This document shows positions 23,163 to 26,729 of a DNA stretch of 64,000 nt, in pieces. The stretch is from Flexibacter flexilis DSM 6793 (lineage in GTDB: Bacteria; Bacteroidota; Bacteroidia; Cytophagales; Flexibacteraceae): the NCBI RefSeq assembly GCF_900112255.1, contig NZ_FOLE01000007.1, positions 124,001 to 188,000 of the forward strand. The letters are read 5' to 3'. Position 1 is the stretch's first letter; the number at the start of each line of letters is the position of its first letter. The notes under the pieces were generated by a model that had not been told where the DNA came from, made no database searches, and saw nothing but the letters and a program-made list of their open reading frames with translations. Position numbers and translations under genes: made by a program.

Positions 23163-23199
23163 TAAAAAAAGAAAAGGCAGGAAAATATATTCCTACCTT
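23163..23199 (-). terminator. Terminator of the HipA-like module
   Basis: On the minus strand AAGGTAGGAA pairs with TTCCTGCCTT, with one G-U pair, followed by TTTTCTTTTTTT. On the plus strand the same position would be a C-A mismatch, so the structure works only for minus-strand RNA. It separates the kinase module from the SDR gene. Confidence 0.75.
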
Positions 23200-23222
23200 C
23201 ATTTTATCAAACAACAAATTTT

Positions 23223-24104
23223 TTAATCTTGTTCCTGCGCCAACTGCACCGAAAATTTGCGGTAATCGTTATTTTCTATCTCGCGTTGCCAATCGGCTAT
23301 TACGCTTTCTTGGTCGCTGATGTCCGTGTACAATTTCTTTTGCACTACCGTATTGAAAATATGTTCTTGCGCCGAACCCGCTTCAGGTTTGTTCACCAAC
23401 AAACAAAATTTTCCTTTTTTCAAATTCAATTCTTTGCCGTATTGCGTGAGTGCTTCGATGAGGTTGTCCAAACGATTAATTTTGCGCAAAACTGCTTCCG
23501 TTTCCGCCTGAAAATCAACCATATCAGCCATAAAAATACGGCCATTTTGAGCAATTAATAATACGGAGGTGTTGGCGTACAGTCCCGTAAGTTGTTGGTA
23601 GGGAACAGTAAAATCCACATCTACTTTATCGGCCAAATCAGGACTTTCAAAAGTTTGTTTGATTCGCTTTTTATTTTTTCTAAAATCTGAATCGGTGGCT
23701 TGGCGTGGAAGCGTCGGTATCTCCCCAAACAAACTTGGGTAGAAAAATCTATCCACCCATTCGCTCGTAACTTGTTCGATAGTAATGGACTTCATTTCGC
23801 CAAAAGCCATGATATTTTGGCAATATCTTCTCAAATAATCAAAAAAATCGGCATCAAAAATCTTCTTTTTGAAAAGGGCTGTGTTAGGCTCATTTTCTTT
23901 TTTGATGGCCAATTCGATGTCTTTGAGCGTACTTTTATACAGTTTGTGCGCCAAATTGCCCATTATTTTTTTCTGCAATTCCAGCCGATGCGCCGAATAC
24001 CGAAACCATAGTTTCTTGTCCGCCGACACGATAAAGCCTATTAATAATTTTTCCTCACTCAACGTCCCGATTCTCGCATAAATAGGCACAAAAAAGGCTT
24101 TCAT
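23223..24104 (-). CDS. Unknown partner protein of a HipA-like kinase
   Basis: 293 residues, soluble, no signal peptide. I do not recognise the family. The first ~50 residues (YARIGTLSEEKLLIGFIVSADKKLWF, split by me at LIG) loosely recall DUF3037 proteins, which are the usual partners of HipA_2 kinases, but the rest is longer and different: a basic stretch at about 135-155 (RKNKKRIKQTFE) and a C-terminal half with a beta-rich region (residues 165-255). The gene starts 11 bp after the stop of the kinase gene, so the two are almost surely cotranscribed and work together. It ends just before a terminator. Confidence 0.65.
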   Translation of the reverse strand: MKAFFVPIYARIGTLSEEKLLIGFIVSADKKLWFRYSAHRLELQKKIMGNLAHKLYKSTLKDIELAIKKENEPNTALFKKKIFDADFFDYLRRYCQNIMAFGEMKSITIEQVTSEWVDRFFYPSLFGEIPTLPRQATDSDFRKNKKRIKQTFESPDLADKVDVDFTVPYQQLTGLYANTSVLLIAQNGRIFMADMVDFQAETEAVLRKINRLDNLIEALTQYGKELNLKKGKFCLLVNKPEAGSAQEHIFNTVVQKKLYTDISDQESVIADWQREIENNDYRKFSVQLAQEQD

Positions 24105-24115
24105 TTATTCTTGTT

Positions 24116-24907
24116 TTATGATAAAGTTTGTAACATTAATGTTTTGATGGATTCGTTGCGCTCTTGGCAAAGCAGCAAATCCAAGATATTTTTGGGAAGG
24201 TCGGCAGCAATCTGCCACGATTCAGGCAACGCCTCAAAAATCGCATTCACTTCATTTTCAATTAGTTTCGTATCAAAACTAAAAAAATGCTCGATTACGT
24301 TGCAGGCCTCCGCCTTTCGCAACTGTCGTTTGTATTGGGTAAAATAGGCCGACGAAATCAGCTTGTTGGTAGGCGATACGGGCGTTTCTAAATCCAAGAA
24401 CCCATTTGTCCCGCCAAAACAACTTTCGTGATTAATCGCAACCCAATCTTTCCCAAACTCGGTTTCTTCTACCAGCAAATTATAATTGCTTTGCGTGCGA
24501 TTGGTGTTATTTACCCACAAATCAAACAGCGCGATTTTGAGCAAACTATGCGGCCTACGAAAATTTCCGTTCAGATTTTTGATATAAGAAATATGTTGGC
24601 TCACCGTTTCGGCTGGCGCAATTTCCTGAAAACCAATACTTATTTCAGTTTTATTTTTCAAGAAATGTTTTTTCTCAAAACTTCCCGTTTGGATTTGGAC
24701 AAAGGCACTGGGCGGCACGCGCAACTCCAAGGCCTCGAGCAACGCCGCGCAAACCAACTCATAAAACAAGGCTTCTGGCCGATGCCTTCCCAATGGCTTA
24801 CAAAAATAGAACCGCCCATCATCGCACCAAAAGCGCAGAGGCTTGTGGCCGTCGGTGGGCAGTTCTGTATCTAACAATACTGTTTTTACAAGAGGTATTG
24901 CGGGCAT
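24116..24907 (-). CDS. HipA-like kinase family protein with altered catalytic residues
   Basis: 263 residues. The N-terminal part has the ATP-binding lysine candidate Lys37 (RFYFCKPLGRH) and a conserved acidic helix (PEALFYELVCAALLEALEL), typical of the short HipA_2 family (HipA without its N-terminal subdomain). The catalytic loop, which I recall as N-x-D-R-x-x-x-N in that family, reads NNTNRTQSNYNLLV here with Asn136 where Asp is expected, and the metal-binding I-D-H reads INHESCF with Asn159. Both changes should reduce or abolish phosphotransfer. ATG 24907 (MPAIPLVKTV) gives the shortest sensible protein and avoids overlap with the ABC exporter gene. First gene of a two-gene unit. Confidence 0.72.
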   Translation of the reverse strand: MPAIPLVKTVLLDTELPTDGHKPLRFWCDDGRFYFCKPLGRHRPEALFYELVCAALLEALELRVPPSAFVQIQTGSFEKKHFLKNKTEISIGFQEIAPAETVSQHISYIKNLNGNFRRPHSLLKIALFDLWVNNTNRTQSNYNLLVEETEFGKDWVAINHESCFGGTNGFLDLETPVSPTNKLISSAYFTQYKRQLRKAEACNVIEHFFSFDTKLIENEVNAIFEALPESWQIAADLPKNILDLLLCQERNESIKTLMLQTLS

Positions 24908-24962: not shown

Positions 24963-26729
24963 CTACGCCAATTCCTTGTACTGCATTTCGTGGAGTTGGG
25001 CATAAAGGCCGCCAGCCGCCAACAGTGTTTCATGCGTGCCGCGTTCTTTGATTTCGCCTTTGTCCAGTACCAAAATTTGCTGTGCGTTCTGAATCGTGCT
25101 TAGGCGGTGCGCAATCACAATCGAAGTGCGGCCTTTCATTACCTTTTCGATGGCCGCTTGTATCAAAGCCTCCGTTTCGGAGTCCACCGACGAAGTGGCC
25201 TCGTCCAGAATGATAATTTTTGGGTCGTACACCATCGCCCGCACAAACGAAATAAGTTGTCGCTGGCCAACCGAAAGCGTTGCGCCGCGTTCCATTACGT
25301 TGTAATCCAAGCCATTAGGTAAACGTTCGATAAACGGCAACGCACCCACCAACTCGGCGGCTTCCAGCACTTTTTCGCGGCTAATGTTGGGGTTACCCAG
25401 CGTAATGTTGTACTCGATTGTTCCCGAAAACAAAAACACATCTTGCAACACCACCCCAATTTGCGCCCGCAAATAATCCAATGAATACTCGCGCACGTTG
25501 TGGCCGTCTATGCTAATGTCGCCGCTTTGGATTTCATAAAAACGATTGAGCAAATTAATAATCGAAGATTTGCCCGCACCCGTCGCACCAACCAACGCCG
25601 TCGTGCTGCCCGCAGGCACATGAAACGAAATATTTTTCAAAATCAAATGCTCGGGATTATACCCAAAACACACGTTATCAAAGCGCACTTCACCCGCAAA
25701 TTTTTCGGGTAAATAGCGGCCTTCGTCGGGGATAATTTCATCATTATCCAACAGTTTCATGATGCGGTCGGTACTCACAATGCCCAATTGCAGCGTATTG
25801 AAACGGTCGGCAATCGTGCGAATTGGCCTAAAAAACATACCGATATACATAATAAACGCAATCAGCGTACCCAACGTAACGGTTTCGTGCAGTACCTCGC
25901 GGCCTCCGTACCAAACCAAAAGCCCCGTACCAATCGCGCCAATTACCTCAGCCACAGGAAAATAAATAGAATAGTACATCACCGACCTAATATTTTCTTT
26001 GCGATGCACGGCATTTATTTCCTTAAATTTTTCGTATTCGCGCTGTTCGGCACTGAAAATCTGCACGATGCTCATGCCCGTAATGTGTTCTTGCACAAAA
26101 GAATTGAGGTTGGCCACCGCCGAGCGCACATCATTGAACGAGCTTTTTACTTTTTCTTTGAAAACATAAGTGCTAATCAACAGCAACGGCAACATCGAAA
26201 GGCTTACCAACGTGAGTTTCCAGTTGGTGTAAAACATCAGGATCAGGATAAAAACCAGTTGCAGCACATCGCCTGCCATTGCCGCCAAACCTTCCGTAAA
26301 AACATCTGAAAGCGTTTCTACGTCCGAAATATTGCGCGTAATGAGGCGACCAATTTGCGTTTCATCAAAGAATTTGAGGCGCAAACCCAACACGTGCCTG
26401 TACAACTTAATGCGAATGTCGCGGATAATGCTTTGCCCCAACCAACCCGACAAATACGTGTGTTGGTATTGCAAAACCGATTGTACCACCAACAGCACCA
26501 CCATAATAACGGTCATTTTCAACAAACCGTCGTAGTTGCCTGCGGCAATGTATTCGTCCACTGTGATTTGGATTTGGTACGGGCGCAACGGAGCTAAAAA
26601 GCCCAGCACAATCGTCATGCCCACCAACAAATAAAATTTGGCGCGGTACGGTTTCATAAAAACCATGAGCCTACGCAACACTTGAGCGTCAAAGATTTTG
26701 CCGCTACTCTCCGAATTAGGATTACTCAT
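24963..26729 (-). CDS. Heterodimeric ABC exporter subunit (YheH/BmrD type)
   Basis: 588 residues: six membrane helices (about 25-310), then an ATPase domain. Walker A GATGAGKSS, Q-loop VLQDVFLFSGT, a changed signature LSVGQRQL instead of LSGGQ, Walker B IIILDEATSSVD with the catalytic Glu intact, and H-switch IAHRLSTI. Together with the next gene it forms a split exporter in which this subunit supplies the functional catalytic site (Walker A/B) and the weak signature. Family members export drugs or lipids. It lies 87 bp downstream of its partner on the same strand. Confidence 0.9.
   Translation of the reverse strand: MSNPNSESSGKIFDAQVLRRLMVFMKPYRAKFYLLVGMTIVLGFLAPLRPYQIQITVDEYIAAGNYDGLLKMTVIMVVLLVVQSVLQYQHTYLSGWLGQSIIRDIRIKLYRHVLGLRLKFFDETQIGRLITRNISDVETLSDVFTEGLAAMAGDVLQLVFILILMFYTNWKLTLVSLSMLPLLLISTYVFKEKVKSSFNDVRSAVANLNSFVQEHITGMSIVQIFSAEQREYEKFKEINAVHRKENIRSVMYYSIYFPVAEVIGAIGTGLLVWYGGREVLHETVTLGTLIAFIMYIGMFFRPIRTIADRFNTLQLGIVSTDRIMKLLDNDEIIPDEGRYLPEKFAGEVRFDNVCFGYNPEHLILKNISFHVPAGSTTALVGATGAGKSSIINLLNRFYEIQSGDISIDGHNVREYSLDYLRAQIGVVLQDVFLFSGTIEYNITLGNPNISREKVLEAAELVGALPFIERLPNGLDYNVMERGATLSVGQRQLISFVRAMVYDPKIIILDEATSSVDSETEALIQAAIEKVMKGRTSIVIAHRLSTIQNAQQILVLDKGEIKERGTHETLLAAGGLYAQLHEMQYKELA

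Follow-up and report, generated by a model that had tools for sequence, protein, structure and literature searches.

A HipA_2/DUF3037 gene pair of Flexibacter flexilis whose kinase lacks both catalytic aspartates, probably a disarmed toxin–antitoxin module

In a 64,000-nucleotide stretch of the Flexibacter flexilis DSM 6793 genome, referred to here as the window, a two-gene module encodes a kinase-like protein with asparagine at the two positions where its relatives carry catalytic and metal-binding aspartates. This member is an unusual variant of a known family, seen once. The pair fairly likely represents a toxin–antitoxin defence module of the HipA_2/DUF3037 (PDC-M66/HipAD) type in a disarmed state. 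The features on which the analysis rests are:

24116–24907, minus strand: HipA_2-family kinase-like protein, 263 aa, predicted to be catalytically dead, with Asn at 136 and 159
24797–24799, minus strand: codon 37, ATP-pocket Lys, retained (Lys in all 163 kinase ORFs covering the position)
24500–24502, minus strand: codon 136, AAT for Asn, at the position of the family's catalytic Asp, equivalent to E. coli HipA D309 (Asp in 164/164 other loci covering it)
24485–24487, minus strand: codon 141, Asn equivalent to the Mg ligand N314 of HipA, retained (alignment to HipA and survey)
24431–24433, minus strand: codon 159, AAT for Asn, at the position of the family's metal-binding Asp, equivalent to E. 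coli HipA D332 (Asp in 162/163)
24105–24115, minus strand: spacer between kinase and partner, 11 bp, sequence AACAAGAATAA
23223–24104, minus strand: partner, 293 aa, with an N-terminal DUF3037-like domain (about 1–130) and a possibly restriction-endonuclease-like C-terminal alpha/beta domain (about 133–280), from an iterated HMM and an AlphaFold2 model
23173–23200, minus strand: terminator-like hairpin with a T tract 3' of the partner, 11 pairs followed by TCTTTTTTTA

The kinase gene is an intact open reading frame running from 24907 to 24116, and its start codon is supported because homologues share that start, for example L029 (MITIPSVETELLIEEKNTDGH against MPAIPLVKTVLLDTELPTDGH). The protein belongs to HipA_2 (PF20613), scoring 54.8 bits in a Pfam profile search against a curated cut-off of 27, and the PADLOC profile PDC-M66A matches its residues 41–245 with an E value of 9.6e-9. 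An AlphaFold2 model built from a 51-row alignment adopts a kinase fold (pLDDT 91.8, pTM 0.91), in agreement with the original prediction, made from the sequence of the window, that the fold had been kept; its structural neighbours include CotH and PI4KII (Z 15–16), CtkA (14–15), HipT and HipA (11.4–12.7) and Fam20 (11–13.6). K37, correctly picked out in that prediction as the ATP lysine, and the helix glutamate E50 are both invariant in the 163 kinase ORFs, and the window kinase retains them along with the conserved HipA_2 residues P23, D129, N134, R137, N141, N143, H160 and W231. We read the protein as a folded pseudokinase that probably binds its partner.

The catalytic loop of the window kinase reads NNTNRTQSNYN, with N136 within NTNR, and the metal motif reads INHESCF, with N159 within INH. 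Homologous kinases read N-x-D-R and [IF]-D-[HN] at the corresponding motifs, bearing out the N-x-D-R and I-D-H given for the family in the original prediction. Our survey combined genome homology searches with pattern scans of genome and viral contigs and yielded kinases spanning the catalytic loop at 164 other loci, corresponding to somewhat fewer independent kinases since some genomes are counted in two collections. With the misaligned gene fragments L035 and L173 set aside, every one of these loci has Asp at position 136, and position 159 is Asp in all but one of 163 other kinases; one genome-contig scan pattern demanded Asp159, so that this sample leans to intact motifs, while the loci from homology searches are free of the bias. 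The sole exception at 159, L081, combines Asn159 with a broken reading frame. In the alignment of the first 142 ORFs, 18 columns reach ≥90% conservation, of which the window kinase keeps 16 and loses only positions 136 and 159; both codons are one base from GAT. The replacement of both key acids, as originally proposed, is borne out by these counts, and at the level of sequence the double loss is well beyond chance. The window kinase departs from its nearest subfamily at 13 residues that are conserved there; leaving aside the two Asp, several of the residues that it has instead are common in outgroups and are therefore not counted as decay.

Alignment to E. coli HipA ties these positions to residues of known function. 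By hhalign, the window segment WVNNTNRTQSNYNLL is set on HipA LIGATD309GHAKN314FSVF, and the catalytic loop aligns to HipA LIGATDGHAKNF. The motif spacing is alike, with five residues from D309 to N314 and 23 from D309 to D332 in HipA, and five from N136 to N141 and 23 from N136 to N159 in the window; hhalign is two columns off at the second motif (N159 against D332), and the equivalence there comes from the 23-residue spacing. In HipA, D309Q and D332Q each abolish growth arrest (PMC3376134), making a window kinase without canonical activity the natural prediction. An intact catalytic Asp elsewhere in the protein, which would have spoken against the original prediction, was sought: none aligns among homologues, and no shifted Asp was seen. 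E161 was considered as a replacement acid, but 14 outgroup kinases with both Asp in place have it too, and it is therefore not a specific replacement. We also looked for a neofunctionalised clade carrying the Asn pair, and found no second Asn-Asn member among the 164 loci, drawn from Bacteroidota, Chlorobi and viral contigs. The closest relative of the window kinase has at most 36% identity, and the Asn-Asn case is known from a single genome.

Searches of plasmid and phage collections, and of viral contigs with a single sequence, gave no match, and phmmer against PDB sequences returned chance matches only. Nine viral contigs (L134–L142) carry HipA_2 kinases of this family, with motifs intact where covered, so that phages or prophages may be further carriers of the HipA_2/DUF3037 pair.

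The partner gene is likewise intact (24104 to 23223). It had been described as unrecognised, and direct profile searches indeed gave no match of the protein itself to Pfam, to PF11236 (DUF3037) or to PDC-M66B, nor to any HTH family; by homology, however, it belongs with DUF3037. With an HMM built up from close relatives, a partner homologue was detected immediately after the kinase at 135 of 136 loci, the single exception being a locus where the contig ends; a partner unrelated in its genomic distribution, which would have spoken against the original prediction, is thus not what was observed. Among the proteins found in this way, short ones of about 130 aa and long ones of about 290 aa match DUF3037 with up to 161.6 bits, and PDC-M66B matches 4 of 51 partners. 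Because these relatives, linked through the iterated HMM, match DUF3037, the window partner is, on sequence homology, a diverged DUF3037-type protein. DUF1829, reported in DS-6B, was not seen among partners of the window subfamily.

The AlphaFold2 model of the partner has two domains (pLDDT 92.6). In structural comparison, residues 133–280 resemble restriction-endonuclease folds and nuclease folds of the Card1/Can2 type at a borderline level (Z up to 7.9), a hint only of a restriction-endonuclease-like fold in the modelled C-terminal domain. We did not retain the idea that the partner is an active nuclease, as these Z scores lie below a reliable level and no conserved PD-(D/E)xK pattern was seen. 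Partner size varies among relatives. In Runella limosa and a Cytophagia MAG (L056:4989-6190, L028, L063), an intact kinase is accompanied by a partner of 137 aa consisting of the N-terminal DUF3037-like domain alone, and this domain may be enough for the core role. At L034:2300-3774 the DUF3037-type partner ORF reaches 491 aa against the usual 290 or so, and may contain a fused extra domain.

The 11-bp spacer is consistent with kinase and partner forming one operon. The spacing and the terminator by which the pair had been tied together were both recovered, the hairpin being weak evidence alone because 3.5 such sites are expected in shuffles of the region. A gene at 24963–26729, which we take from its sequence to be an ABC exporter, ends 55 bp upstream of the kinase, and the downstream neighbour of the pair is presumably a short-chain dehydrogenase, a family name likewise read from the sequence. 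The pair is absent from all ten other genomes of the same family (Flexibacteraceae), where the gene order beside the orthologous ABC gene varies; the pair is accessory. Around the window pair there are no adjoining retron or other defence genes and no type I restriction setting. Type I restriction genes flank or enclose many homologous pairs: of 100 ORFs flanking 23 loci, 8 matched type I methyltransferase and 6 type I specificity profiles (raw counts), and clustering of flanking genes gave three recurring neighbour families of 8–9 loci each, the third of which we take, by eye, to be HsdR. This setting of the relatives supports a defence role for the family. Pairs within or beside type I restriction-modification genes include L059, L061, L066, L069, L081, L083, L088, L092, L098 and others; the neighbouring methyltransferase and specificity subunits were identified by PADLOC, and the pair sometimes sits between them on the opposite strand.

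In the disarmed module that we favour, the kinase would still fold and bind its DUF3037 partner and would be incapable of Mg-dependent phosphoryl transfer, so that it would neither poison the cell nor mount a kinase-dependent abortive defence. Once toxicity was lost, the module would most likely have ceased to be costly, leaving the partner to persist either alone, as an orphan antitoxin, or bound in a silent complex; in either form it could neutralise related incoming toxins in an anti-addiction role. The survey turned up seven or more separate cases of a broken or truncated kinase gene beside an intact partner (L010/L085, L019, L022/L132, L023, L035, L070 and L081, with L184 as an eighth), some of which may reflect MAG assembly errors, and one clear case of the reverse (L105); this recurrent breakage fits toxin loss with the antitoxin kept. 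Mean identity to the subfamily is 0.31 for the window kinase, the lowest of the members compared (0.37–0.43 for the others), and the window partner lies within the range. A simple relic is harder to reconcile with the open reading frame and the integrity of all other family-wide invariants, which would not be demanded of a drifting gene. With none of the 16 other invariants lost, drift alone would allow less than about 0.19 substitutions per site since the loss (3/16 rule), whereas the terminal branch measures 1.39 in a quick tree; the second acid was lost though needless for detoxification, an event expected about once in 17 by chance among the remaining invariants. The open frame, the retention of K37, E50, N134, R137, N141, N143 and H160 within the 16 of 18 invariants kept, the confident predicted fold and the loss of both acids, not just one, would suit a dead kinase retained under selection for a role alongside the DUF3037 protein, be it that of binding partner, allosteric subunit or nucleotide sensor, in the manner of scaffolding by Fam20A. 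Fam20A is a kinase-fold pseudokinase and is among the structural neighbours, as are many active kinases. We nevertheless find such selection doubtful, given that the Asn pair recurs in no second genome among the 164 loci, that the genome contains no active HipA-family paralogue to regulate (searches for HipA_2 and HipA_C proteins returned no other member, and hence no active sister kinase), and that recurrent kinase breakage elsewhere shows simple loss to be common. Only tentatively, then, would we envisage a retained pseudokinase–DUF3037 complex, in which a HipA-fold protein without phosphoryl transfer works with its partner to regulate by binding or by sensing nucleotides, or serves as a built-in anti-addiction decoy directed at active HipAD modules. 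Among the roles originally offered, an inactive toxin–antitoxin relative fits best, whereas a new two-part regulator and a nucleotide sensor gain no direct support.

Retention of the ATP-pocket Lys, its Glu and the Mg-ligand Asn141 could also be taken to mean that the protein acts as a kinase or other transferase through different residues, such as E161 or D155, or that Asn136 and Asn159 are deamidated to Asp, and SelO and SidJ are examples of pseudokinase-fold enzymes with other chemistry. With both acid positions lost at once, E161 shared by outgroup kinases that have both Asp, and no shifted Asp in the alignment, we regard such non-canonical activity as very unlikely. The Asn-Asn case rests on one genome assembly, and each change is a single base (GAT to AAT), as would be expected if the true codons were GAT and the kinase normal. 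Such a sequencing or assembly error would have to have struck twice, independently, on just the two catalytic codons of an assembly that is 99.84% complete, in a gene with no frameshift or other oddity, and we give it scant credence.

It was only in 2025–2026 that HipA-like/DUF3037 modules were validated as toxin–antitoxin systems acting against phages, and our survey shows that HipA_2/DUF3037 pairs are numerous in Bacteroidota, a fair proportion lying in type I restriction loci or next to them. A natural copy without exactly the two catalytic acids offers a ready-made test of whether binding, autoregulation and the neutralising of related toxins can proceed without catalysis. The window pair further shows a possible way of disarming such modules that leaves the reading frame unbroken.

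Compared with known systems, the window kinase shares with PF20613 a score above the curated cut-off and the conserved residues, and differs in having Asn for Asp at 136 and 159. With E. coli HipBA and HipBST it has in common the kinase fold, the motif spacing (D309/N314/D332 corresponding to 136/141/159) and the structural similarity to HipT and HipA; unlike them, it has neither N-subdomain-1 nor a HipB/HTH antitoxin, its partner is unrelated and its catalytic acids are lost. It consists of the 263-aa core only, in a genome without HipA_C, and so falls outside HipBA. The closest counterparts are two-gene systems. In Retron-Sda1, whose pair is PADLOC PDC-M66, defence depends on the HipA-like kinase, and deleting the DUF3037 gene proves toxic (PMC12548924); DS-6, renamed HipAD, has the same two-gene design, and a catalytic mutation removes its defence (PMC13092281). 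The window pair resembles PDC-M66/DS-6/HipAD in the order of kinase and DUF3037-type gene, which overlap or nearly do so, in the PDC-M66A match and in the two-domain partner. It differs in that its kinase is without both acids on which activity depends, its partner is too diverged for a PF11236 or PDC-M66B match, and no retron or other defence gene stands beside it. It is not a new kind of module, the system having been described in papers of 2025–2026, and is best read from its sequence as a diverged, disarmed member of this HipA-like/DUF3037 system; since HipAD needs a catalytically competent kinase, we file the window pair as a disarmed relative rather than as a working HipAD.
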